Shown: positions 19,597 to 38,718 of the stretch, piece by piece
Position numbering within the stretch: the stretch's first letter is position 1
Layout of the letters: each line of letters opens with the position of its first letter
Origin: Archangiaceae bacterium
GTDB taxonomy: Bacteria; Myxococcota; Myxococcia; Myxococcales; Myxococcaceae
DNA length: 38,745 bases
NCBI GenBank assembly: GCA_016879935.1
Contig: JAACJQ010000141.1
Span: 1-38,745, forward strand
Direction of reading: 5' to 3'
Position numbers and translations under genes: made by a program
Notes under the pieces: model-generated
What the model was told of the DNA's origin: nothing
Seen by the model: the letters and a program-made list of their open reading frames with translations, nothing else
Database searches by the model: none

Positions 19597-19744
19597 CGAC
19601 TTCGGTTCTGCATGAGCGGTCGTGAGTTCGCCAACGAGACTGATTTGATCCGCACTCATCGAGGGGCAGCGCCCTGACCTCGAACACGACTCCGACTCGC
19701 CCATGAGCAGCCGCCCGAGAGCGGCCACCCACCGGCCGGCTTCG

Positions 19745-22700
19745 TCAGCGGCTTCGTCGACGCAGCAACGTGAGCGCGAGCGCCAACACCGACAGCCCGC
19801 CTTCGACACCCGAGCAACCACAGCCCTTGGGCATCTCGGTCGCTCCACCACCTGCTGCGCCGCCAGCCATCGCCTGGCCACCACCTGCGGAGCCTCCGCC
19901 AGCCGCGCCGCCACCGGTCGCGCCACCATCACCCGGCTGGGCCGTTCCACCACCCATGCCGACGCAGAGGTCGTCGACCGTGCCGTCGCAGTCGTCATCG
20001 ACGCCGTTGCAGAGCTCGAGCGAAGGCTTCACCTCTCCCGTGCACCGCGTGTAGCTGCCGTTGGTGCAGGTGCGCATGCCGCCGCGGCACGCGCCCACGC
20101 CGCGCGTCTCGGACGGGCCGGTGTAACAAGGCCGCGGCTCGTCAGCGCGGCACGTGCACATGTCGTCGACGGTGCCGTTGCAGTCGTTGTCGAGCCCGTC
20201 GCAGATCTCGGCCGTCGGCATGTTCGGCGTGCACGTCTGCATCGTGCCGGCCGTGCAGCGGCCGACGCTCTTGCGGGCGCACGCCCCCGAGCCACAGCGG
20301 TCGTAGCCGATGAGCGCCTGCGTCTCGCGCGCGACCTCCTGCAGGCCGTCGCAGTCGTCGTCCTGGTTGTTGCAGATCTCGGGCGTCGGAATCTTCCCGG
20401 CGAACGCGACGAACCAGCCACCATCGGCGCGGTTGCACTGGAGCACGCCCTCGGCGCACGGTCGCGTCGGCACCGTGCCCGGCCCTGCGTAGAACGAGCG
20501 CGACGGGCGCGGCCCACCATCGGGGAACCGGCAGTCGAAGTCTTCGTCGTACAGGCCGTCGCAGTCGTTGTCCTTCATGTCGTCGACCTCGGGCGAGCCG
20601 GTGCCCGCGTCGCAGACCTGCGGCACGCCGTTGAAGCAGTTGTTCACCAGCCGGTAGCAGTTGCCGAGGCCGCACGCCGTCTGGCCGAGCCCATCGTCAG
20701 GCACGCCATCGCAGTCGTCGTCGAGGCCGTTGCACGTCTCGGTCGTGGGCTGGTTGAGGGGCAGACACGAGAGTCGGCCCGACTGGCAGCGGCGCTCTCC
20801 GGCCTGGCACACGCCGAACTCGCCAGCCACGGAGCAGCTCGCGCCACCGCCCGGGTTGTCTTCGTCGATCATGCCGTCGCAGTCGTTGTCGAGGCCGTCG
20901 CACGCTTCGATGAAGGGGCCGATCTGATCACGGCACGCGCCCCAGAACCCGTTGCGGCAGATCTGCGTTCCCTGGCGGCACTCACCCGCGCGCAGCGTGT
21001 TGGTGTCGGCGGTGTAGCAGGCACGACGTTCACCCTCGGGGCACTGCGGCTCGTTCGTCTCGCAGTCGGCCGGCAGCTGCGCGCCGGGGTCATACGGCGT
21101 GGGGCAGGTCTGGTCGACGCCGAGCGCCACCTGCAGACTGCCGACGCTGGGGTACGTGTGCCGCGCGCCGTCTCCGTCGGTGAAGACGAAGTAGTACGGG
21201 TGGCAGCCGTTGGGCAGCACGTCAGGGTCGGGGAAGTGGGTCTCGTAGGTGCCGTTCGATGGCTGGCCCCACGCGCGGTCCATGTCGAAGCAGTGGCCGG
21301 CGATGACGACGGTCGAACGTTTGGGCGCCTTGCGTGACGGGTCGAAGTAGTTGGCCGCGAAGTACAGCTGCGCGGTGGAGCCGGGGTTCGGCGGCGGGTG
21401 CATCGCGCTCGCCGCAGGAATGCGCGGAATGGTGACGGCGCCGCGGCCGTACGCAACGGCCCAGTACGGCATCGAGCACTGGCTGCCTTCCGCACGGAAC
21501 AAGCCGGCCGCGAACTCGGTGCCGCCGTCGGCGTAGATGCTGGGCCGGTTCTGCGCCGACTGCATCAGCGTGCACCACAGGTCGTACGCCGAGGGCACGT
21601 TGCGCGCGATGGTGGTCGCCGAGAGGGTGTTGAAGCCGAACAACGAGTACCGCGCCTGCGCCGTCTGCCCGACGCCCGCATCACAGGTCTGCCCGCACAT
21701 CGCGCCGGTGCACGCGCCAGGAGAGAGACAGCCGACGCCCGAGCCTGCGTCACCGAGCTCGCAGCAGCTCTCGTTCTGGTAGCAGCCAATCTCCGCCATG
21801 TGCCGCGCCGAGAAACGCGCGCCCAGGTTGCCTTCGCGTGCGTAGACGAACGGCGCCTTGTCGACAGTGGCGCCGAACTCGCCGGTGAAGTCGCCGCACA
21901 TGCCGTTGGGCGTCTTCGCCGACACGCGCGACTGGTTCATCAGCACGTGCAGCATGCGCTCCTGGTCGCCGGGGAAACCGCCCGAGGGCTCACCGAGTTC
22001 CTGCGTCACCGACGCGACCGGCTCCGAGCTCTCGGGAGCCGACGTGCCCGCGCAGCCCGCGAGCAGCACCGCCATCACCGGCGCGACGACGACCGCCGAC
22101 GTCACGAGCGCGCTGCTGCGCCTTTCCCGCCTCCGGCGCGCCGCGAGCAGACCGAGCAGCGGCAACAACAACGCCGCGTCACCCGAGCCACTGCACCCAC
22201 AGCCCTTCGGCATCTGCGTCGTGCCGCCACCACCACCCGCGCCGCCGCCCGTGCCGCCCGTGCTCCCGCCGCCCGTGCCCGAGCCGTCGGTGACGTTCAC
22301 GCTCGCGGTGGCCACGAAGACGCCACACGTCGCGGTGACCGAGACGGCTTGAGCCGTCGACGGCGCAGTGAACGCACCGTTCGCGTCGATGGAGCCCGCC
22401 GACGCCGTCCACGTGCAGCCGGGCGCCTGCGCGTCGGCACCGGAGAAGTCCTTGCCCTGCGCGGTGAACGTCTGCGTGCCGCCCGTCGACACGTTCGCCA
22501 TCGAGGGCGTCACCTCGACCTTCGCGACGCCGTCCTGCACCGTCACCGTCACGAAGCCCGTCACCGTGAGCTCGCGCTCGTCTTTCACGTCGACGCGCAG
22601 CGTGTACTGGCCGGGCGCTCCGAAGGTGATGGTGGTCGACTTCGCGGCGTTGGTGCCGTTGGGCGTGAAGGTGACGAGCGCGGGCGGGTTGGAGGCGCCC

Positions 22701-25700
22701 CACGTGTACGTGAGCTTGCTCTCGTCCATGTCGTCGGTGGCCGAGACAGAGCCGGTCGCAGCGCCGCCCACGACGGGGCTCGGCGTGACGGTCGGGCCCA
22801 TCGTGATGCGCGGCACGGGGCCAATCTCGGTGCGCAGGTTCGCGGTGGCCATGCGGCCTCCGACGGTGGCGGTGACGGTGCACATGCCCGTCGAGGTCGC
22901 GGTGAAGCGGCCCGTGGGCGTGATGGTGCCGCAGCCGCTGACGGCCCACTCGATGTCTTCGGCGCTGTCGATGGGCTGGCCGAACTGGTCGGTGCCCGAC
23001 GCGGTGAACTGGCGAGAGTCGCCGACGTTGATGGGGCCGGTGGGCACTCCGAAGATGTTCACGCTGGTGGCGGTCGCCAACACGACGACGGGCAGGTCGG
23101 CCGAGACGGTGAGGTTGCCGAGGTCGGTGGCCGTCACGCGGAACGAGTAGGCGCCCGCGCGCTGGAACGTCACGGTCACGTTCTTCGCGCCGTTGTTGCC
23201 GTTGTTGTTGAACGTCACCATCTGGGGGCCGAAGGTGCGCGTCCACTGGTAGGTGAGGTCGGCTTCGCTGCCGGGCGCCGGGTCATCGGCGAGCACGAAG
23301 AGGTCGGCCGTGGTGCCCACGATGGGAATCGGCGTCGCGCTCGGCGGCACGATGATGATGGGCCGCGCGTTGGCGCCCTGCACCGAGAAGTCCTGGCCCG
23401 TCACGTCGCCACCATCGAGCGTCACGGAGCGCGTCGCGGGCGCGAAGGTGAACCCGGGCTTGAAGGGAGCCACCGTCCACGTCCCCTCGGGCACGTTCGC
23501 CAGCACGTAGCTGCCACGGCCGTCGGTGATGCCGCTCGACACGATGCCGCCGTCGTCTTGCGTGGCGCGCACTTCGGTGGCGAGGAGCGGCGCTCCGGCT
23601 TCGTCGATGCTGCCGCGCACCAGCCACAGCGGGCCCTGCGTCGAAGCCGTCGCGTTGAAGACGAGGTTGGTGATGGGCATCGAGCCGACGTTCACCGGGT
23701 TCATGAACATGGGCACGATGCGCTGGTTCGGCGCCGAGGCCGTGAAGTTGTACGAGCCGGCCGGCACGCGGGGGAACGAGAAGGCCCAGCTCGCGCCCAT
23801 CAACGTCGTCTGCACCGAGCGCACGCCGTCGGTCACCGTGTGCGGCCCCATGGTGCCGGTGACGACACCCGACACGGGCACGACTTCTTCGACGAAGTTG
23901 CAGCCCGTCACCGGGTTGCCGTTCACCGTGATGGGGTTCACGCAGTTGGTGAGGCGGAACGTCTGGCCAGGCATGCCGCGCGCGGTGAGCGTGTACTGGC
24001 CGTTGGGCACGTTGGTGAGCTGCCAGGTGCCGGTCGCGCTCGAGATGGTGGTGTACGCGCCGGCCGAGATGGTGACGCCCGCGAGCGGCTGCATCACCGA
24101 GGTGACGTTTCCGAAGATGCCGAAGCCCGCGCGAATCGCGTTGAAGTTGAGGTTCGTCGCGCCGGTGGTGGGCACGGTGACGGGGTTGGTGAACGAGGGA
24201 GACAACGTCCACCCCGGCTTGGACGCGGTGACGGTCGTCGAGGTGGGCGTGACGCCGACCAGCACGTAGTCGCCGTTGGAGTCGGTCAGCGTGGTGCGCA
24301 TGCCCGAGACGACGCGCACGCCGTCGACGCCGAGCATCGTGTTGACGTCGGTGACGCGGCCCGAGATGCGCGTCGTGGTGGGGTTGCCGACCCGCACGAT
24401 GACGTTCGCCGAGCTGGTGCCGCCCTTCATGTCGCTGACGGTGACGCGCATGACGGCGTCGCGCACGGTGGTGAAGCGGTTCGTCACCATCGCGGTGTTG
24501 GTCGAGGTGAAGGTCTCGTTCGCGGGCGCCTGCAGCGACTCCCACCAGTAGGCGAGCGCGTCGCCGTCGGGGTCGGTGGCCATCGCGTTGAACGTCACCT
24601 GCTGGTTCACCGCGGCCTGGGTCATCGACGCCGTCAGCATGATGGTGGGCGGCCGGTTGGTGGTGAAGGCGCCGCGGTTCACGGTGACGTTGATGGACGA
24701 GGGCATCGTCGTGGCGACGCTGGTGGGTGTGATGTGAATGCCCGCGCCGGGGTCTGAGAACGTGCGACCAATCTGCAGGGGCGCGTCGGTGGCGGTCGCC
24801 GTGCCCGGGTTCATGTCGAGCAGGTTCGACTCGGCGGCCTGCGGGTAGCCCCAGAAGATGACGGCGCTGCGGGCGAGCAGGCCGCCCTCGGTGGGCCTGA
24901 ACTCGACCCAATAGTCACGCGCGCCGCTGATGGGCACGCGCAGGCCGTGAAGGCCGCCGAGGCTTGGTTGCTCGAGGTCGTACACCTGGAAGCTGCCCGA
25001 CTGCGCCGGCTGCGAGACGACCTGAATCTGCGCGTTCGAGAACCAGTCGAGGTCCCACTTGTACCAGGCGTTGAAGTGGCCCTGCAGGCCCGTCGTCTCG
25101 TCGATGTTGCCGCCGCCCATCGTGTCGAAGGGGTTGCCGTACTCCTGGCTCGAGCCCGCGCCGATGATGGTCTCGTTGGGCGCCTGCCAGAAGTTCGCGT
25201 GGCGAAGGCCGAAGTTGTGACCGAGCTCGTGGGCGATGACGCCGAGGCCGTAGCTCCCGTTGATCCACGTGCCGCGCGCGCCGACGAAGCCGAGGCCGGC
25301 CCAGCTCCAGGCCGAGATGCGGCGGAAACCGACGACCTCGAAGTCGAAGTTGGCCTGCGGGAACCCGGCGGTGGCTGCTGCCGCGCGCGCGTCGTTGAGC
25401 AGCTGCGAGGTGGCGTTCATCGAGCCGTACGAGGCCTTCGTGCGCGGCATGCGCAGCACGGTGGGCGTCACGGTGCCGGTGATGCTGGTCTGGTTGAAGC
25501 TGGCGGCGCGGTAGTAGCGGTCGAGCTGAACGAGCACGTTCTGCGCGGTGGCGACGGTGAGCGGCTCGCCCGGGTCGTCGCTGAAGTCGACGCGAATGTA
25601 GAGCACCCGCTTGTTGCCGATGGTGTACGGCGACGGCTGCGGGTCGACGGGGTTCGAGTAGGGAACGGCGCCGTCATCGAGCGCCATCACGTCGTCGAGC

Positions 25701-26131
25701 GAGCTGCCCGACAGCCGCATGGCCGAGCGGGTCTTGAGCTTGCGCAGCTCGCCATACGGAATGACGTCGAACCGTTTGTCGCCCAGCCACGCCTGCACGA
25801 ACAGCGGCTTGCCGGTCTCACACATCACCTCGTAGCGGCCGACGGCGTCGACGGGCAGCTCGAGCTGCTGCGCCACCGAAGGCGGGAGCCCGAGGCGTGA
25901 CTCGAACACCGAGAGCGCGCGCCGGGGGTCGGTGCGCATCAGCTCCTTCAGCGCGACGCGGCGGGCCTTCGCGAGCGGCAGGCCTTCTTTCTCGAGGCGT
26001 GTGCGGTCGAGGTCGCTGTCGGCGGAGCGATACGAGCGCGCCCAGGTGGCGAAGCGCGTGAAGTCGTCATCACCGGCGAACGCCGACGACGACGCGAGCA
26101 GCGTCAGAGCGAGGAGAATGGCGCGCAGCAT
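19745..26131 (-). CDS. Gametolysin-like metalloprotease joined in frame to a CAP/MopE-repeat protein, two MYXO-CTERM tails
   Basis: One uninterrupted frame of 2128 codons. It begins with signal peptide MLRAILLALTLLASSSAFA. A zincin domain carries HELGHNFGLRH (H301, E302, H305, H311) and a downstream FDTMGG Met-turn-like motif, fitting the M11/gametolysin-type clan. Beta modules follow: PKD-like (about 490-590), four carboxypeptidase-regulatory-like (about 590-920), then PKD- and Ig-like domains to about 1285. A Gly/Thr linker leads to PKGCGCSG (C1311, C1313), a hydrophobic stretch and RRRRERR, a complete MYXO-CTERM tail. Translation then continues into AVLLAGC (C1360, a lipobox), a CAP/SCP-like domain (about 1385-1560) and six MopE-type motifs such as CDGLDNDCDG between about 1740 and 2057. 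A second PKGCGCSG tail (C2104, C2106) ends it. This looks like two surface proteins fused by loss of a stop, a true polyprotein, or a sequencing error; see the junction entry. Confidence 0.8.
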   Translation of the reverse strand: MLRAILLALTLLASSSAFAGDDDFTRFATWARSYRSADSDLDRTRLEKEGLPLAKARRVALKELMRTDPRRALSVFESRLGLPPSVAQQLELPVDAVGRYEVMCETGKPLFVQAWLGDKRFDVIPYGELRKLKTRSAMRLSGSSLDDVMALDDGAVPYSNPVDPQPSPYTIGNKRVLYIRVDFSDDPGEPLTVATAQNVLVQLDRYYRAASFNQTSITGTVTPTVLRMPRTKASYGSMNATSQLLNDARAAAATAGFPQANFDFEVVGFRRISAWSWAGLGFVGARGTWINGSYGLGVIAHELGHNFGLRHANFWQAPNETIIGAGSSQEYGNPFDTMGGGNIDETTGLQGHFNAWYKWDLDWFSNAQIQVVSQPAQSGSFQVYDLEQPSLGGLHGLRVPISGARDYWVEFRPTEGGLLARSAVIFWGYPQAAESNLLDMNPGTATATDAPLQIGRTFSDPGAGIHITPTSVATTMPSSINVTVNRGAFTTNRPPTIMLTASMTQAAVNQQVTFNAMATDPDGDALAYWWESLQAPANETFTSTNTAMVTNRFTTVRDAVMRVTVSDMKGGTSSANVIVRVGNPTTTRISGRVTDVNTMLGVDGVRVVSGMRTTLTDSNGDYVLVGVTPTSTTVTASKPGWTLSPSFTNPVTVPTTGATNLNFNAIRAGFGIFGNVTSVMQPLAGVTISAGAYTTISSATGTWQLTNVPNGQYTLTARGMPGQTFRLTNCVNPITVNGNPVTGCNFVEEVVPVSGVVTGTMGPHTVTDGVRSVQTTLMGASWAFSFPRVPAGSYNFTASAPNQRIVPMFMNPVNVGSMPITNLVFNATASTQGPLWLVRGSIDEAGAPLLATEVRATQDDGGIVSSGITDGRGSYVLANVPEGTWTVAPFKPGFTFAPATRSVTLDGGDVTGQDFSVQGANARPIIIVPPSATPIPIVGTTADLFVLADDPAPGSEADLTYQWTRTFGPQMVTFNNNGNNGAKNVTVTFQRAGAYSFRVTATDLGNLTVSADLPVVVLATATSVNIFGVPTGPINVGDSRQFTASGTDQFGQPIDSAEDIEWAVSGCGTITPTGRFTATSTGMCTVTATVGGRMATANLRTEIGPVPRITMGPTVTPSPVVGGAATGSVSATDDMDESKLTYTWGASNPPALVTFTPNGTNAAKSTTITFGAPGQYTLRVDVKDERELTVTGFVTVTVQDGVAKVEVTPSMANVSTGGTQTFTAQGKDFSGADAQAPGCTWTASAGSIDANGAFTAPSTAQAVSVTATCGVFVATASVNVTDGSGTGGGSTGGTGGGAGGGGGTTQMPKGCGCSGSGDAALLLPLLGLLAARRRRERRSSALVTSAVVVAPVMAVLLAGCAGTSAPESSEPVASVTQELGEPSGGFPGDQERMLHVLMNQSRVSAKTPNGMCGDFTGEFGATVDKAPFVYAREGNLGARFSARHMAEIGCYQNESCCELGDAGSGVGCLSPGACTGAMCGQTCDAGVGQTAQARYSLFGFNTLSATTIARNVPSAYDLWCTLMQSAQNRPSIYADGGTEFAAGLFRAEGSQCSMPYWAVAYGRGAVTIPRIPAASAMHPPPNPGSTAQLYFAANYFDPSRKAPKRSTVVIAGHCFDMDRAWGQPSNGTYETHFPDPDVLPNGCHPYYFVFTDGDGARHTYPSVGSLQVALGVDQTCPTPYDPGAQLPADCETNEPQCPEGERRACYTADTNTLRAGECRQGTQICRNGFWGACRDQIGPFIEACDGLDNDCDGMIDEDNPGGGASCSVAGEFGVCQAGERRCQSGRLSCLPLNQPTTETCNGLDDDCDGVPDDGLGQTACGLGNCYRLVNNCFNGVPQVCDAGTGSPEVDDMKDNDCDGLYDEDFDCRFPDGGPRPSRSFYAGPGTVPTRPCAEGVLQCNRADGGWFVAFAGKIPTPEICNNQDDDCDGLQEVARETQALIGYDRCGSGACARKSVGRCTAGTMQTCTPNMPTAEICDGLDNDCNGTVDDMCTCRADEPRPCYTGPSETRGVGACRGGMRTCTNGSYTRCTGEVKPSLELCNGVDDDCDGTVDDLCVGMGGGTAQPGDGGATGGGAAGGGSAGGGQAMAGGAAGGGATEMPKGCGCSGVEGGLSVLALALTLLRRRSR
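22060..22210 (-). other. Internal MYXO-CTERM tail running directly into a lipoprotein signal
   Basis: Codons 1308-1358 of the large frame. The sorting tail PKGCGCSG, then LLLPLLGLLAARRRRERR, would normally be followed by a stop. Here 13 codons later a second signal-like sequence begins: V1343 (GTG at 22105) or M1353 (ATG at 22075), a hydrophobic run and the lipobox AGC at C1360. The Arg cluster that should end the first protein could also serve as the n-region of the second signal peptide. Neither GTG nor ATG has a well-placed ribosome site; GGGAAAGG lies about 15 bases before the GTG. A separate second gene of about 776-786 residues is the alternative reading. Confidence 0.6.
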
Positions 26132-26241: not shown

Positions 26242-28668
26242 TCAGCGCGGGGGAGTCAGCACGCGCTTGAGCGTCGCGACCGCTTCGTCGAGCTTCCACG
26301 GCTTGAGCAAGACGGCGGCGACGCCGAGGCGGCCCAGCTCTTCTTTGTCGAGGTGCGACGCGAACCCGCTCGACACGATGACGGGCAACGTCGGCCGCAC
26401 CGCGCGCAGCGACTTCGTGAACTCTTCTCCGCTCATCTGCGGCATCGAGAGGTCGGTCAGTACGGCGTCGAAGCCCTGCGGCTTCTGACGAAACGCCTCG
26501 AGGGCCGCGCGCGGGTCGTCGAACACCGTGGTGCGATACCCGAGCGTCTCGAGCAGCTTCGCGCTCACCCGCGCCATGCCCGGGTGGTCGTCGACGAGCA
26601 TGAGGTGCTGGCCTTCTCCCGGCTGGTCGTCATCGGCGTCGACGGCCGGCAGGTACACCTCGAAGGTCGAGCCCGTGCCCGGTGCGCTGGTCGCGAACAC
26701 CGCGCCGTCGTGACCCGTCACCACCGACTGCACCACGGCGAGGCCGAGCCCCGAACGCGCCGTGCTGGTGGAGTAGTACGGCTCGAAGATTCGCCGCCGC
26801 GTCGCTTCGTCCATGCCCGGCCCGGTGTCGCTGACGACGAGGCGGGCGAAGGAGCCAGCCCGCAGCGGCGGCCTCGAGGCGGCCTGGTCGAAGGAGATGC
26901 GCGCGAGCTCGAGCGAGACCGTCAGCTTCCCGCCGTCAGGCATCGACTGCAGCGCGTTGGTGCAGAGGTTCAGCAAGACCTGGTGCAGCTGCACCGAGTC
27001 TCCGGGCACCCGCACGTCGGAGAGGGTTCGCACCACGTCGACCGAGGGCGCGGTGGCCGAGAGCTGACGCAGCACCTCGTCGACGAGCGGCTTCAAGTCG
27101 ACGGGCCGCTTCTCATCGGGGCGGCGCCGGCCGTAGTTCGCGATGCGCCGGGCGAGCTCCCTTCCCCGCGACGTCGCTTCGAGAATCGCGCGCTGCGCTT
27201 CGGGTGCCGCCGTGCCATCGACGAGCCGCTGCGCGTGGGCATCGATGGCCGAGAGCAGGCTGCCGACGTCGTGCGCCACGTGCGTCGCGAGGCGCGCCAG
27301 GGCTTCGTTCTTCTGCGCCTCGGCGAGCTGCGTCTCGAGCTGACGCGACAGGCGCTCGGTGAGACGTTGTGTCGTCACGTCACGCGCGACCGAGGCGAGC
27401 CGCTGCACCCGGCCCGTGTCGTCGAGCATGGGAATGATGGCGGTGTTGTACACGCGCGGCCCCGTGGGCAGCGGCAGCTCGTGTTCGTAGACGATGGGCA
27501 GGCGTGCGCGAATGGCCTGCTGGTAGCGCTCGTTGAGGCGAGAAGCGGCGACGGGCGGCACCACCTCGTGGGCTTCTCTGCCGACGACGTCGTCACGGCG
27601 GTAGCCGGTCGACTGCTCCACCGCGGGGTTGATGTCTTCACAGAACACGCGGCCGTCGACGGCGACGCGGTAGAGCAGAATGTTGTCGGACGAGTAGCGG
27701 AAGATGTCCTTGAAGCGGCGCTCCGAGAGCGTGAGCGCGGTCTCGATGCGGCGCCGTTCGGTCGTCTCCAGGGCGAGTGACACGACGTCGGCCAGCGCGC
27801 TCGAGAAGACCTCTTCAGCGGCGCTCCAGCGGCGGGGTGGGCCGCGGTGCTCGATGCAGAGCGCGCCGACGAGCTCACTGCGCAGTCGCAGGGCGACGTC
27901 GAGCGTCGAGGTGATGCCTTCGGGCTCGAAGTAGCTGTGGGTGAACTCGCGCGTGCGCGGGTCGGTGGTGGCGTTGGCCGAGGCGAGCACGCGGCTCGAG
28001 CCGAGCGTCTCGAAGTAGACCGGGTGTTCGTCTTTGTGCAGCTGGGTGCCGTGCGAGTGCAGCGCGGTCTTGGCGTCGTAGAGATCGAGCAGCGTCAGCG
28101 AGCGGCGGTCGTCGGTGTAGACCCACACGCCGCAGCGATCGACGCCCATGCTCTTCGTGCAGCGCCTGGTGATCTCCTGCAGCATCGCGGTGAGGTCGTC
28201 ACCGCTGAAGACGGGGCTGCGGGCGAGCTCGACGAGGGCGGCGGTGGCTTCGCGCAGCTGCCGCTCCTTCTCTTCTTCGGCGGCCTCTTCACGGGCTTCA
28301 CGCTGCAGGCGCGCGAGCACGGCCGACAAGCCGAGCAGGCCGGGCCGGAAGACCCAGTCGGAGGCGCCGGTGGCGAGCCAGGTGATGACGTCGGACTCCT
28401 GGCGGGCATCGGCGACGACGACGACGGGAGCGCGCTGGCCCACGTCGTCGAGCAGCGCGACCCAACCCGCCGCGTCGAGCGAGGAGGAGAGCAGGTCGAC
28501 GAGCACGGCGTCGAAGCGCATGGCCGTGAGCAGCGGCCGGGGGTTCTCGTCTCCACGCAGGCGCTCGAGGCGCACGGTGCCGTTGTCGGAGGCGAGCGCA
28601 CGATGCACCCAGCCGGCATCGTCGTCGGTGCCGCCGATCAGCAGGAGCTGGGGCGTGGCGCGCTTCAT
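26242..28668 (-). CDS. Hybrid sensor histidine kinase (receiver-like, GAF, PAS, kinase, receiver)
   Basis: 808 residues from the ATG at 28668; a longer in-frame reading upstream crosses the divergent promoter and lacks kinase-like sequence. An N-terminal receiver-like domain (about 5-125) has D58 but lacks the conserved Lys (FRPG in place of a KP motif). A charged helix (EEAAEEEKERQLREA) leads to a GAF domain (about 165-315), then PAS (about 325-445, FRYSSDNILLYRV, NPAVEQSTGYRRDDVVG). The HisKA site is H466 (THVAHDVGSLL). The ATPase domain has NLCTNALQSMP, DTGPGMD and SGLGLAVVQSV. The C-terminal receiver has VDD, phosphoacceptor D739 (LTDLSMP) and a Lys in LLKPW. No membrane segment is present. 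Output probably passes by phosphorelay to a distant protein. It is an orphan, with no regulator gene adjacent. Confidence 0.92.
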   Translation of the reverse strand: MKRATPQLLLIGGTDDDAGWVHRALASDNGTVRLERLRGDENPRPLLTAMRFDAVLVDLLSSSLDAAGWVALLDDVGQRAPVVVVADARQESDVITWLATGASDWVFRPGLLGLSAVLARLQREAREEAAEEEKERQLREATAALVELARSPVFSGDDLTAMLQEITRRCTKSMGVDRCGVWVYTDDRRSLTLLDLYDAKTALHSHGTQLHKDEHPVYFETLGSSRVLASANATTDPRTREFTHSYFEPEGITSTLDVALRLRSELVGALCIEHRGPPRRWSAAEEVFSSALADVVSLALETTERRRIETALTLSERRFKDIFRYSSDNILLYRVAVDGRVFCEDINPAVEQSTGYRRDDVVGREAHEVVPPVAASRLNERYQQAIRARLPIVYEHELPLPTGPRVYNTAIIPMLDDTGRVQRLASVARDVTTQRLTERLSRQLETQLAEAQKNEALARLATHVAHDVGSLLSAIDAHAQRLVDGTAAPEAQRAILEATSRGRELARRIANYGRRRPDEKRPVDLKPLVDEVLRQLSATAPSVDVVRTLSDVRVPGDSVQLHQVLLNLCTNALQSMPDGGKLTVSLELARISFDQAASRPPLRAGSFARLVVSDTGPGMDEATRRRIFEPYYSTSTARSGLGLAVVQSVVTGHDGAVFATSAPGTGSTFEVYLPAVDADDDQPGEGQHLMLVDDHPGMARVSAKLLETLGYRTTVFDDPRAALEAFRQKPQGFDAVLTDLSMPQMSGEEFTKSLRAVRPTLPVIVSSGFASHLDKEELGRLGVAAVLLKPWKLDEAVATLKRVLTPPR

Positions 28669-28793
28669 ACGAAAGGAGTCCCCCACAGAGAGCCGCGGCA
28701 CCTTGCCTGAAGCCGGGGCGAAAGACACGACCACGCGTCGGGCAAACGCCAGCGAAGCGCGGCGAGGGCTCGGGCATGGGAGTAGCCTGACCG

Positions 28794-29141
28794 GTGATTG
28801 TGCTGAGGCTCCGACTCTCACGCTCGATGATGCTCGTCTTCTTCCTGCTGGCATGCCGGCGTGAGCCCCCACGCGCGGACTGCCGAGAGATTCTCGAGGC
28901 TGTCGAAAGCTCGTCGTGCAGGGCAACGCTCCTCGCCAGGTGCGGAGTGAAGGACCTGCCAATCCACGTCGAGTTCGAAGACGGCGGACGGTGCGATGCA
29001 CAGGTGTTCGATCAGTGGACCGCCAGCCCCCAGAGCGTTTCGCGTGAGCCAGATGGCGGCGTTCTCGTCGCGGTGAACTTCTGCGGTGGTTGTTCGAGTC
29101 GAGACGACGAGCCGTTCCTGCTGCACCACGGGAAGGATTAG
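28794..29141 (+). CDS. Small lipoprotein, hypothetical
   Basis: 115 residues from a GTG (GGGAG upstream); two in-frame ATGs at 28827 and 28830 would shorten the signal peptide and remove its Arg residues, so the GTG is preferred. The leader LRLRLSRSMMLVFFLLAC ends in a good lipobox (LLAC), giving a lipidated Cys at 21. The mature chain has several Cys residues (CREI, SSCRATLLARC, GGRC, NFCGGC) that could form disulfides. I do not recognise the family. The next gene starts 4 bases after its stop, which points to an operon. It is divergent from the hybrid kinase gene. Confidence 0.65.
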   Translation: MIVLRLRLSRSMMLVFFLLACRREPPRADCREILEAVESSSCRATLLARCGVKDLPIHVEFEDGGRCDAQVFDQWTASPQSVSREPDGGVLVAVNFCGGCSSRDDEPFLLHHGKD

Positions 29142-29144
29142 CCA

Positions 29145-29687
29145 ATGAACGACGGTGAAGAGATCGTCCTTCGAGACATCCAGGTTCTCCTGGAGTCGCT
29201 CCGCCGTGCACCTCGCGTCGATCTGTGGGCGGTTGTCAGCGCACTCAGTCTTGTCAAACAGCTCGAGGGCTCCGCACGCCTCTGGGGCATGCGGCTGGTC
29301 GCCAATGCTCTGATCCGAGGCCGTGCATTTCCTGACGTCGCAGCAACGCTGTGCGCTGAGCTGCTCGAACTCCGGGCCGATGCGACGGCCATCGACCTTG
29401 CGGCAGAACTTGCGGAGCTGGGTGGGGACTATGAGAAGGCGCGGGCGTACCGCCGACTCAAGAGTGAAGTGCCCAGCTTCGACGACGAGCCGGACGCGTT
29501 CACGAACGTGTTCTCCACCGTCACTTCGCAGTGGGTCAGGCAGCGAAAGCCGCCGATGTCAGGGCGTGAGCGATTGGAGTGGCACTTCGCGCTCGTGGAA
29601 CGGCTCGAGAAAGCCGCTCGCGGGCCGAAGCGGCGTCAGTCCGCCAAGAGAACACCACCGTCGAGAAAGCGCCGTACGGCTCGATGA
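29145..29687 (+). CDS. Helical hypothetical protein
   Basis: 180 residues, mostly helical. Repeated hydrophobic heptad-like stretches (VSALSLVKQLEG, LCAELLELRADATAIDLAAEL, EKARAYRRLKSE) resemble a short helical-repeat scaffold but match no family I know. The C-terminus is strongly basic (RGPKRRQSAKRTPPSRKRR), which could bind nucleic acid or acidic partners. No signal peptide or membrane segment is present. It follows the lipoprotein gene by 3 bases. Confidence 0.65.
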   Translation: MNDGEEIVLRDIQVLLESLRRAPRVDLWAVVSALSLVKQLEGSARLWGMRLVANALIRGRAFPDVAATLCAELLELRADATAIDLAAELAELGGDYEKARAYRRLKSEVPSFDDEPDAFTNVFSTVTSQWVRQRKPPMSGRERLEWHFALVERLEKAARGPKRRQSAKRTPPSRKRRTAR

Positions 29688-32563: not shown

Positions 32564-33868
32564 TCAGGGCGGGTCGACGTCGAGGCGGTTCTCCACCACG
32601 TCCTGCACCGCGCGCGGCACGTCGGACAGGAAGTCGAGCCCCGTTGCCTGCTCGATGGAGCGCGCCGTCACGCGGAACTGTCGCCAGTTGCCGCTCACCG
32701 TCGTGGTGTTGGGCACGATGACGGCGATGACGCGCGTCGAGGTGGTGAGGTTCGCGGTGGGCGCTCCGTCGAAGACGACGGCGACCTTGAACGTCGAGAG
32801 CGGCACGGGCACGCCGGCGCCGATGTTCTGCGGCGTGACGCCAAAGATGGGCCCAGCAGTGATGACCACGGTCTTGCCCTGCGCGACGAGCGTGCGGGCT
32901 TCGTCTTCGAGCGTGGCCCAGGTGCCGGCGTTGCTCGCGTGCGTCTGCGGAACGATGTTGGTGAAGACGAAGGTCGCGTCGTTGTCGAGGTCAGTGCTGG
33001 TGCGGTCGGCGCTCGGGCAGAGGTGGCCGCGGTCGAACCCGCTGTTGCGGAAGTCTTCGTCGCGCGCCTGACCGGCAGTCGTGGGCAGCTGCGTGTCGCG
33101 GCGGAAGGAGGTCGCGCGCGTGGCACTTCCAAGCCAGGTCGGGTCGAGCCGCCATGAGACCCAACGCGGCGTCTTGAGAGTGGTGTCGTACGAGCTGACG
33201 TACTGCGGCTTCACGAGCAGCCAGCGATCGAGGCGGCCGACCGAGGAGTCGTCGGGAAGACCGAGCACCGTGTGCGTGCTGAGCGCGACGCCAGCAGTGC
33301 CGACTCCTGCGTCGATCGCGACGACGCCCGCGTCCACATTCGAAATGACGACACCTGCATCGAACGGCACAACGACGACGCCGGCGTCCACATTCGGAAT
33401 GACGGCACCGGCATCGAACGGCGCAACGACGACGCCTGCGTCCACATTCGGAATGACGGCACCTGCATCGAGCGGCGCAACGACGACGCCTGCGTCCACA
33501 TTCGGAATGACGACACCGGCATCGAACGGCACAACGACGACGCCCGCGTCCACATTCGGAATGGCGACGCCTGCATCGAACGGAACAGCGACGATGCCAG
33601 CGTCGAATTCCGAAGTGACTCCACCTGCATCGACACCGGAAGCACCGACGCCCGCATCGACCTCGACGACACCTGCGTCGACTTCCGCCCCTGCATCGAA
33701 CTTCGCCGCGTCGACCTCTTCGGCAGGCTGATCGACCGGCGCCTGCGCAACCGTGGTCGCGCGCGGCTCATCATCGACGTGCACCAACACGTCCGACGAG
33801 CCGCCGCACGACCACCACCACGTACATGTGAGCGCCAGCAGGAGACAGCGCCGAGGGAGGAGCGGCAC
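32564..33868 (-). CDS. NucA-type DNA/RNA non-specific endonuclease lipoprotein
   Basis: 434 residues from a GTG with GGAG 4 bases upstream. The leader LLPRRCLLLALTCTWWWSC probably ends at lipidated C21, with an unusual WWSC site. Residues 50-190 are an acidic DAG-rich spacer made of 9-residue units such as VDAGVVVVP and FDAGVVIPN; five 54-bp repeats encode it. The catalytic domain (about 205-434) is a beta-beta-alpha-metal nuclease of the NUC family: RRDTQLPTTAGQARDEDF leads to FDRGHLCPSADRT with the catalytic DRGH (His282), then NIVPQTHASNAGTW, which carries the metal-binding Asn. Such secreted nucleases degrade DNA and RNA without sequence preference. A surface-anchored nuclease for nutrient scavenging or predation is inferred. 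Confidence 0.9.
   Translation of the reverse strand: MPLLPRRCLLLALTCTWWWSCGGSSDVLVHVDDEPRATTVAQAPVDQPAEEVDAAKFDAGAEVDAGVVEVDAGVGASGVDAGGVTSEFDAGIVAVPFDAGVAIPNVDAGVVVVPFDAGVVIPNVDAGVVVAPLDAGAVIPNVDAGVVVAPFDAGAVIPNVDAGVVVVPFDAGVVISNVDAGVVAIDAGVGTAGVALSTHTVLGLPDDSSVGRLDRWLLVKPQYVSSYDTTLKTPRWVSWRLDPTWLGSATRATSFRRDTQLPTTAGQARDEDFRNSGFDRGHLCPSADRTSTDLDNDATFVFTNIVPQTHASNAGTWATLEDEARTLVAQGKTVVITAGPIFGVTPQNIGAGVPVPLSTFKVAVVFDGAPTANLTTSTRVIAVIVPNTTTVSGNWRQFRVTARSIEQATGLDFLSDVPRAVQDVVENRLDVDPP
33330..33599 (-). repeat. Five tandem 54-bp repeats encoding the DAG spacer
   Basis: The marker GCGTCCACATTC recurs at 33330, 33384, 33438, 33492 and 33546, exactly 54 bases apart, and a degraded copy (GCGTCGAATTC) begins at 33600. 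Each unit encodes two 9-residue pieces (FDAG-x-x-I-P-N and VDAG-V-V-V-x-P). Units differ by a few bases. The length keeps the frame, so copy-number change would lengthen or shorten the linker without disrupting the nuclease. Confidence 0.9.
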
Positions 33869-36252: not shown

Positions 36253-38718
36253 CTACGGGTTGAGCGTCAGCTCGCCGTGAAGGCCACGACGAATCTCGGC
36301 CACGTCGAACAACATCGGCACCAGCTCACCGCGTTTCCACGCGTCGTATTGGTCGCCGTAGTGCGCCGAGCCCGGCCAGCCGCTCGCGCCGGAGTCGATG
36401 ACCCACCAGCCGTGCGCCACGTCGGCCATGTCGACCACGCTCCGGTACACGGGGCCCGCGACGACCTTGAACGGCGCTGCCTCGTTGCCGATGTCGAAGT
36501 GCGTCTTCCACACCGAGTCCATCTCGCCGCCCGCTTCCATGCGCTCGAGGTTCACGGCGCCATCGAGCACCGCTTTGCCTCCGAAGACGTGCATCGGGCG
36601 GTGCCAGTGCAGCCGGCCCCAACGCCACGCGGTGACCTCGGGCCCCTGCGCCTCGGTGAGGTCCTGCACGGCGCGTTGGAACGCCGCCCGCACGAGCTGA
36701 TCTCTCGTCTCGACTGCGGCCGTCGCGCGATCGTCCCACACCACGTGCGTCGCGTTCTCGAACCAGAGGTCGACGGTGTTCGTCGAGTAGCGCTGACCGA
36801 GGAAGAACTTCACCGCTGGCGCGGGCAGCTCGTCGCTCACCGCGTTCACCACCGCGTGCCGATAGGTGAGGAAGAAGATGGCTGCCTCGGGTCCATCGGC
36901 CTTCGCGTCGAAGTTCCACGTGTTCAGGCGGGCGAGCGCCGCGCGTGCGGTCTCCGAGAGCCCGTCACGCGAGCCGAGCGCTTCTTTGATGAACGGCCAC
37001 AGCGTCTGCGCGCGCAGCGAGAAGGTGTCGTTCTGCATCGCGCGGAACGAGGCGAGGTCGTGCTTCGGCGTGGCCTTCGCGAGGTCGACGATGCGCTGGT
37101 GACGAAACGCGGGCGCGGAGTCGACGTGCAGACGCGCGAAGTCGGTCGCTCCCGGCTCGGTCATCAGGTTGTTCGCGTGCGCGATGACGCCGTCGGCGGG
37201 GTCGATGACGTGCGCGAGGCGATCGCCACCGACGAACTCGCTCCACTCGTACTTCTTCGTCCACCCCGGCACGGGGAACGTGCCTCGGTGGTTCGGGCGC
37301 AGCGGCACTTCTCCCGAGGGAAACTGCCCGATGTGGCCCTCGACGTCGGCCACCGTCCACGTGTTCCAGATGGACGGCAGCTGCGAGGCGGCCTTGCCGA
37401 AGTCCTCCACGCTCGTCGACTGGTCGAGGCGGAGCAGCGCGCCCATCACCGTGTCGAGGCCTGTCACGCGCCATCGAATCGCGAGCAGCGGAGCCTTCGG
37501 CGGAAACAACTGCGGCAGCAGGTCGTTCATCAACGGCCCGTTGCAGCTCGCGCGAAATCGCACCGGGCGGTCGAGCAGCTCGGAGCCATCACGCACCCGA
37601 ATCACCTCGTCGCGCGTGGTGATGGGGCACTCGCGTGACTCGTTCTTCACGAAACCCGGTCGCGCCGCGTCTTCCTGCTCGATGACGAGATCGATCGCGT
37701 CGCTCATCGTCGACGTCATGCCCCACGCCACCTTCGCGTTGTGGCCCGAGAGCACCCACGGCACCCCGGGAATGGTGACGCCGATGACGTCGAGGCCGGG
37801 CGCGGTGAGGTGCTGCTGCACCATGAGGCTCGGGAGGAAATGCGCGAGGTGTGGGTCGTTCGCCACCATCGGCTTGCCCGACTTCGTGTGCGCGCCCGAG
37901 ACGACCCACGCGTTCGACGCGCCTTCGATGGGCATCACCGAGAACCACGCAGAAGGATCGCTCGCCTTCGCGTCACCGAGCTTCACCGGAAAGAGGCCCG
38001 CGAGCTCTTCGACGACGGCAGGCGGCAACGGCTGCGACGGCGACTTCGACACCACGCTGCGGCCGCCGCGGACCGGCTCGTTCGGGTACAGCAGCTCCAT
38101 GCGCTCGACGCCCTGGTGCATCGCGAAGAGAAAGCGGGCGAGCTCCTGCTGGTAGTTGTGCGTCACGCTCCACACGTTCAGCACGCCGACCGCGAGGGTG
38201 TCTGACGCGTTCCACGGCTCCGATTCGATGTGCAGGAGCCGGTACTCGATGGGCGGCCACTGCTCGCGCGCCGCGTTCACACCTGCTGCGAACGCTTCGA
38301 GCTGCTCCTTCTGCTCGGCCGACAACTTCCCGAAGTCGGCCAGCGCGCGGCCCTCGATGTCCCAGCCGCGCATCGTCTTGTCGTATTCGACGGTGGTGCT
38401 CGAGACCATCGGCTGCTCGCCGACGATCTCACTCACGCGTCCCCGCGCGAGGCGGCGCATCATGTCCATCTGGAAGAAGCGGGCGCGGCCCTGCATGAAC
38501 CCGGCGGCGCGCGCGAGGTCGACCAGGTTCTTCGCTTCGAGGTGCGGCACACCCTGCGCGTCGGTGGTGACACGAACCGCTTCCTTCAACCCGCGCAGCT
38601 GGAGCGTCTGGCCGTCAGGGTCCTTCGGCGCGTTCGGCGCGATTTTGTAACCGACGAGCGACGTGAGCGCGCAGCCGGCGCTCGAGCAGGCGAAGACGAC
38701 GAGCAGCAGACGACGCAT
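36253..38718 (-). CDS. Penicillin-acylase-family (S45) lipoprotein
   Basis: 821 residues. MRRLLLVVFACSSAGCAL is a lipoprotein signal ending at C16. The N-terminal alpha region (about 40-265) has VTTDAQGVPHLEAKN and GFMQGRARFFQMDMMRR, both typical of the family. The autocatalytic site is EGASNAWVVSG, with S268 as the new N-terminal nucleophile of the beta subunit, followed by NDPHLAHFLPS and GVPWVLSGHNAKVAWGMT. An Asn-containing stretch HANNLM may supply the oxyanion Asn. The family includes penicillin acylases and acyl-homoserine-lactone acylases; the substrate cannot be assigned here. Length fits the family. The NDH-2 gene lies 108 bases downstream. Confidence 0.92.
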   Translation of the reverse strand: MRRLLLVVFACSSAGCALTSLVGYKIAPNAPKDPDGQTLQLRGLKEAVRVTTDAQGVPHLEAKNLVDLARAAGFMQGRARFFQMDMMRRLARGRVSEIVGEQPMVSSTTVEYDKTMRGWDIEGRALADFGKLSAEQKEQLEAFAAGVNAAREQWPPIEYRLLHIESEPWNASDTLAVGVLNVWSVTHNYQQELARFLFAMHQGVERMELLYPNEPVRGGRSVVSKSPSQPLPPAVVEELAGLFPVKLGDAKASDPSAWFSVMPIEGASNAWVVSGAHTKSGKPMVANDPHLAHFLPSLMVQQHLTAPGLDVIGVTIPGVPWVLSGHNAKVAWGMTSTMSDAIDLVIEQEDAARPGFVKNESRECPITTRDEVIRVRDGSELLDRPVRFRASCNGPLMNDLLPQLFPPKAPLLAIRWRVTGLDTVMGALLRLDQSTSVEDFGKAASQLPSIWNTWTVADVEGHIGQFPSGEVPLRPNHRGTFPVPGWTKKYEWSEFVGGDRLAHVIDPADGVIAHANNLMTEPGATDFARLHVDSAPAFRHQRIVDLAKATPKHDLASFRAMQNDTFSLRAQTLWPFIKEALGSRDGLSETARAALARLNTWNFDAKADGPEAAIFFLTYRHAVVNAVSDELPAPAVKFFLGQRYSTNTVDLWFENATHVVWDDRATAAVETRDQLVRAAFQRAVQDLTEAQGPEVTAWRWGRLHWHRPMHVFGGKAVLDGAVNLERMEAGGEMDSVWKTHFDIGNEAAPFKVVAGPVYRSVVDMADVAHGWWVIDSGASGWPGSAHYGDQYDAWKRGELVPMLFDVAEIRRGLHGELTLNP

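Follow-up and report, generated by a model that had tools for sequence, protein, structure and literature searches.

The window, the whole stretch of DNA that was analysed (38,745 bp, contig C73), comes from a 9.5 Mb assembly in 445 contigs. It contains a single open frame that runs on the minus strand from an ATG at 26131 to a TGA ending at 19745 and encodes a product of 2128 amino acids, in which two tagged proteins follow one another (Table 1). A preliminary description of this DNA had reported the uninterrupted 2128-codon frame without its strand, and the frame was borne out on the minus strand. GC3 remains high throughout the junction between the two halves, so there is no hint of a frame change at that point. 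Directly upstream of the fused gene, a hybrid histidine kinase gene (26245-29211, minus strand) with GAF, PAS, HATPase and receiver domains is kept beside it in the genus. The window also carries genes for a DNA/RNA non-specific endonuclease (32567-33868, minus strand; 3.6e-50) and a penicillin amidase family protein (36256-38718, minus strand; 7e-181).

Table 1. Features of the fused gene, and the other internal-tag junctions with the protein pairs that they join
Feature	Position	Strand	Basis
Two-protein precursor gene (class A)	19745..26131	-	One open frame, 2128 codons
Sec signal peptide MLRAILLALTLLASSSAFA, N-terminal, residues 1-19	26075..26131	-	Read by eye from the sequence
M6-like/metzincin protease region, protein 1	24962..25639	-	TIGR03296, 5.8e-15
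Zinc motif HELGHNFGLRH, residues 301-311	25199-25231	-	Matches HExxHxxGxxH
PKD, carboxypeptidase-regulatory-like and Ig-like modules, protein 1	22292..24664	-	Pfam
Internal MYXO-CTERM tag (PKGCGC, helix, RRRRERR), residues 1308-1338	22118..22210	-	TIGR03901
Arg cluster common to the tag end and the n-region of the next signal	22118..22138	-	Sequence comparison
Lipoprotein signal within the chain (hydrophobic run, then lipobox LAGC; Cys1360 at 22052-22054)	22052..22117	-	Lipobox pattern
GTGA, in-frame GTG (V1343) overlapping a +1-frame TGA; possible residual start	22102..22105	-	Genus comparison
CAP-like domain, divergent, protein 2	21422..21964	-	PF00188 matches in two orthologues; alignment
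Six MopE-type (DNDCD-like) motifs, protein 2	19955..20911	-	Sequence; Cu-binding_MopE 1.7e-18
Terminal MYXO-CTERM tag, protein 2 (PKGCGC...RRRSR), residues 2101-2128	19748..19831	-	Junction HMM match 19712-19831
Two CARDB/Ig-type proteins; signal peptidase I site	C14 (L072)		Judged by eye
MopE protein, then VWA-like lipoprotein	C134 (L140)		
VWA-like protein, then lipoprotein	C220 (L079)		
Adhesin-like protein, then OmpA-type barrel; class E	C164 (L222), C255 (L223)		
Short signal peptidase I (SPI) protein	C217 (L096)		

Protein 1 begins with the N-terminal signal peptide expected of MYXO-CTERM proteins, which was identified by inspection. Its M6 domain match (TIGR03296, 5.8e-15) scored 55.9 bits, under the family cut-off of 110.8, and the zinc motif is kept in the orthologues examined, one of which has HELGHNVGLRH. 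Motif and domain match together support the earlier assignment of this half as a metalloprotease. MYXO-CTERM proteins are also expected to carry their tag at the C-terminus, but of the two tags in this product only the second is terminal, the first occupying residues 1308-1338 of 2128. The internal tag scored 24.3 bits against TIGR03901 (cut-off 20), and C1311, C1313 and RRRRERR (residues 1332-1338) were found where the preliminary description had placed them, as was the lipobox cysteine C1360, within LLAGC.

The features of a lipoprotein signal are all present at the junction, with the Arg cluster as positive n-region, a hydrophobic run as h-region and the cysteine of LAGC as lipobox residue, supporting the earlier suggestion that the Arg cluster doubles as the n-region of the next signal. 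A lipoprotein signal is expected at the N-terminus of its product, whereas this one is internal, and there is no usable start for it in four of the orthologous genes (G006, G007, G008 and G015).

In protein 2, the six MopE motifs were confirmed by sequence and by the Cu-binding_MopE match, and the second MYXO-CTERM tail, also reported before, was picked up at residues 2101-2128 by the junction HMM. The CAP domain claimed for this half is only moderately supported by sequence comparison: two protein 2 orthologues matched PF00188 just below the gathering cut-off (E 0.002-0.003), while the window copy gave no Pfam match for a CAP domain even at E 10. An AlphaFold model of the CAP-like domain, built from seven close sequences, had a pLDDT of 30, and a sequence search against the PDB returned a single weak match at chance level.

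The second half of the fused gene was found in 15 of 96 genomes of the family, the window's own among them. A single frame holds both halves in every one of the seven genomes of the window's genus and in three genomes of other genera (G007, G015 and G023), and two more (G008 and G014) have the same open junction at contig edges. The single frame is uncut in G001, G003-G007, G015 and G023, and cut by a contig edge in G002, G008 and G014. An open class A junction is thus conserved in 12 genomes of six genera (the window's genus and five others), with indels in multiples of three. Since it is conserved in 11 genomes besides the window's own, chance and sequencing error are excluded by this comparison as its origin. 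The other members of the genus are metagenome assemblies deposited as Myxococcaceae under different projects; none of them has a stop after RRRRERR, and in close orthologues the halves remain fused instead of forming two separate genes. The fusion thus survives both of the refuting conditions named in the preliminary description. The central claim of the preliminary description, two surface proteins within one frame, is therefore supported by a junction that stays open across orthologues. The gene neighbours seen in the window are conserved within the genus, but in G007, G015 and G023 none of them turned up next to the fused gene; the two halves thus stay joined at other loci as well.

All 12 class A junctions retain the tag GCGC and a match to the lipobox pattern, while the loop between tag and lipobox diverges. 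The distance from Arg cluster to cysteine ranges from 18 to 52 residues and is always in frame. The loop of G014 (L037), VHPERSEAKSSGGPRLRSGKTE...SPRLRSGRTE, resembles an in-frame insertion of a dispersed repeat, suggesting that the cytoplasmic loop is highly tolerant.

The two halves are separate in other members of the family. In G024, protein 1 terminates at its tag, protein 2, which has a lipoprotein signal of its own, starts with MPFSFRSAGVLLLLTAC, and a small HEAT-repeat-like gene (L036; MHRLLVLTLLGLSAVALA...) stands between them. In G010 the halves are on different contigs and in G029 protein 2 occurs alone, in both cases with a lipoprotein signal of its own. A tree of protein 2 requires three changes between fused and split states, with fused lineages on either side of the midpoint root, and would fit either an old fusion that was undone three times or a fusion that arose repeatedly.

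At the nucleotide level, the codons CGC CGG AGG CGG GAA AGG of the Arg cluster are identical in six of the seven genus genomes, and this Arg/Glu six-codon stretch has the highest codon conservation in the gene by a simple score, narrowly ahead of the next stretch. The corresponding 20-nt block CGCCGGAGGCGGGAAAGGCG (22118-22138, minus strand; RRRRER(R)), identical in the same number of genomes including the L027-L031 sites, contains the rare codons AGG, used twice, and GAA; it is able to pair GCGCC with GGCGC and has an A-T exchange in G006. Within the fast-changing loop, the tetranucleotide xTGA is kept in all seven genomes (x = G, C, A, A, A, G, G). The GTGA site and the Arg-codon block could be what is left of a start, or a site of pausing or frameshifting.

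The preliminary description had seen a single case, but at least seven were found in this genome when a genome-wide search for MYXO-CTERM tags was carried out together with a junction HMM. Seventy tags among the stronger HMM matches were read by translation. Sixty-three of these are terminal and end 21-43 residues past the start of the match, and the other seven are internal and continue for 214-921 residues. Every one of the seven internal tags runs directly into a signal peptide. Domain names for the classes other than A were assigned by inspection, and the protein pairs are unrelated to one another. One match in this genome (C23) was rejected as not being a tag, and the family matches G033:C1:3522467 and G066:C58 and the phylum match G023:C117 turned out to be normal tails or tails with a slight extension.

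Across the family, the order and the phylum Myxococcota, 52 tag-signal junctions in 12 classes were collected, and they are present in other families and in other classes of the phylum. Half of them (26) have a lipobox, with the lipobox pattern fitting all 26 signal peptidase II sites, and the remaining 26 have an SPI-like site; the loop carries a net positive charge in all, and the median distance from the Arg cluster to the cleavage site is 25 residues. Part of this sameness of signals comes from how the set was selected, because junctions of this kind served to build the HMM and cleavage sites were assigned by eye; no such selection affects the open frames, the conservation of the partners or the bimodal outcome of the tag census. 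All 11 genomes (five genera) that carry the second half of class C have it in an open frame shared with the first half, the G001 pieces lying on different contigs, and in class D the frame spans the junction in 3/3 genomes. Most barrels of class E are encoded by genes of their own, with long frames containing them only in some cases, so fusion has probably recurred. The tag-signal junction is a recurrent architecture of Myxococcota.

Substitution patterns were compared between frames at three classes of junction. In frame 0, dN/dS was 0.72 for class A, 0.20 for class B and 0.65 for class C, whereas pN/pS in the other frames was 1.0-2.7; the constraint at the junctions thus falls on frame 0. 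The high (relaxed) values of classes A and C are expected for signal peptides, and also for weakly constrained linkers. Because a usable start codon is missing between Arg cluster and cleavage site in 23 of the 52 junctions, and because frame 0 is constrained, it is strongly supported that translation passes through the junction.

The best explanation of the fused gene, and one that we consider probable, is that a single precursor forms a membrane hairpin and is cut by a myxosortase and by signal peptidase II to give two surface proteins. According to PMC11980579, the MYXO-CTERM tag forms a helix whose Arg cluster is cytoplasmic. Protein 1 would be exported by means of its N-terminal signal and would stop in the inner membrane at the MYXO-CTERM helix, leaving the Arg cluster in the cytoplasm, where it would serve as the n-region of the second, internal signal. 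From topology and charge, the helix of that signal would insert the opposite way, and a helical hairpin and export of protein 2 would therefore follow. The second cleavage site would have to face the periplasm, at the end of a hydrophobic run that starts at the cytoplasmic Arg cluster. The myxosortase MrtX, whose gene is present in this genome, would cut after the tag cysteine and release protein 1 to the surface with a lipid anchor, while Lgt and LspA would act at Cys1360 to free protein 2 as a lipoprotein, which would lose its terminal tag later. The predicted outcome is two surface proteins in a 1:1 ratio, and in some other classes signal peptidase I may act in place of LspA. The enzyme steps assigned to MrtX, Lgt and LspA are proposed from the conserved signals and the known enzymes. 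Processing at both sites appears to be the best explanation since both cysteine motifs are retained over deep divergence and the archaeal protein HVO_0405, discussed below, provides a precedent.

To our knowledge, bacterial surface proteins are not generally thought to be made as precursors cut by two membrane proteases. We lean towards a general surface-polyprotein route in Myxococcota, in which internal tags, roughly 1 in 10 of the tags in this genome, would share their Arg cluster with a second signal, and a myxosortase together with signal peptidase I or II would release two proteins in a fixed ratio, protein 2 of the window being lipidated at both ends. If this is true, sorting tags would be internal cut sites besides terminal addresses, and fusion could set the ratio of surface partners. 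Fused pairs would then be candidate partners (protease with CAP/MopE, MopE with VWA, adhesin with OmpA barrel). They would also be myxosortase substrates with a band shift of tens of kDa on cleavage, so that the enzyme and the lipidation step would be easy to assay, as was done for archaeosortase with HVO_0405.

The window comes from a fragmented 445-contig assembly, and a sequencing or assembly error could have deleted a stop codon, but six other species of the genus, assembled independently in different projects, and members of other genera likewise have an open junction. The orthologues refute such an error, which we regard as having a negligible probability. Protein 2 might instead be made mostly from a start of its own within the junction, the open frame being a by-product of a lost stop. 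An in-frame ATG or GTG does follow the Arg cluster in six of the seven genomes of the window's genus (g1), its first base varying only between A and G among these, and a start there would yield a plausible short lipoprotein signal, but the signal resulting from initiation at V1343 would be without a positive n-region. Moreover, G006 and G007 have no in-frame ATG, GTG or TTG from the Arg cluster to the cysteine, and G015 and G008 have none far enough from the cysteine. Since usable starts are missing from the 23 junctions mentioned above, and a Shine-Dalgarno-like site at usable spacing precedes the start in only 6 of 52, internal initiation is improbable for protein 2; the junctions lacking start codons rule it out as a general device. 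A programmed +1 frameshift in g1, by which protein 1 would end at the TGA overlapping the GTG or ATG and translation would then re-initiate, would account for the invariance of the Arg codons with their rare AGG in six of seven genomes and for the +1 TGA in all seven. No recognised slippery motif is present, however, and G006 has CTG, which is not a usual start. A nearby overlapping stop is absent from class A of other genera and from most other classes, and its conservation is confined to class A of one genus, which rejects the frameshift as a general device; even within g1 we consider it very unlikely.

The remaining alternative accepts translation through the junction and holds that the product stays in one piece, with the internal tag and lipobox as relics and the halves joined by a membrane hairpin. 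We infer cleavage at either site, and protein fusion is a common path to new architectures, both of which leave room for an uncleaved protein. Relics should decay, however, and the tag and lipobox cysteines are kept in all 12 fused orthologues, including those of genera at approximately 44-55% identity, while the loop varies; every internal tag in the genome is also followed by a signal peptide. An uncleaved product therefore seems unlikely, and cleavage at both sites is preferred.

The preliminary description had stated that, as far as was known to it, internal sorting signals of this kind were not described, which was wrong. Guo, Haft & Wall 2025 (PMC11980579) reported rare ORFs with internal MYXO-CTERM motifs, making these an already known kind, and discussed MXAN_5598 of Myxococcus xanthus, for which a gene fusion was suggested and processing of the N-terminal part proposed. 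This protein, which appears in a list of outer membrane vesicle proteins (PMC4158809), is similar in that a large adhesin with an internal MYXO-CTERM is followed by an envelope protein in the same frame, and its described architecture resembles that of class E (e.g. C164 and C255). It differs in being one atypical case whose second part is an OmpA barrel, whereas in the window both halves are tagged and the internal signal has a lipobox, and the design is common to many unrelated pairs. TraA/TraB of M. xanthus outer membrane exchange likewise pairs a MYXO-CTERM adhesin functionally with an OmpA-type partner encoded by the following gene, but in two overlapping ORFs instead of one frame (PMC11980579). 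According to the account in PMC7157517 (citing Abdul Halim 2017), HVO_0405 of Haloferax volcanii is a natural two-gene fusion in which a central tripartite site for the archaeosortase ArtA was cut experimentally. Its sorting enzyme and tag are different, it is a strain-specific domain fusion, and the passages on it in that source mention no internal signal peptide.

A search of the available literature for bacterial polyproteins with internal signal peptides found no papers on them. FbcH, the cytochrome bc1 precursor of Bradyrhizobium, is a single polypeptide from which cleavage at an internal signal peptide yields two envelope or membrane proteins. Bunyavirus Gn/Gc, with the internal Gc signal peptide named in PMC5113920, similarly derive from one polypeptide that gives two envelope proteins. 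Both systems differ from the fused gene in having no sorting tag and in using signal peptidase alone. What is new here is the joining of two tagged proteins with a lipobox at an internal position, the rule that the tag leads directly into a signal peptide, the recurrence of this coupling in about one tenth of the tags of this genome, and the spread of the junctions to other families and classes of the phylum.

By eye, the proteins that follow the internal tags of L212 (G133) and L096 (C217) are similar (...IDTSDAVARVRV.. and ..IELSDAIVHGRVV.., respectively). This likeness between distant members of the phylum suggests an old class H.
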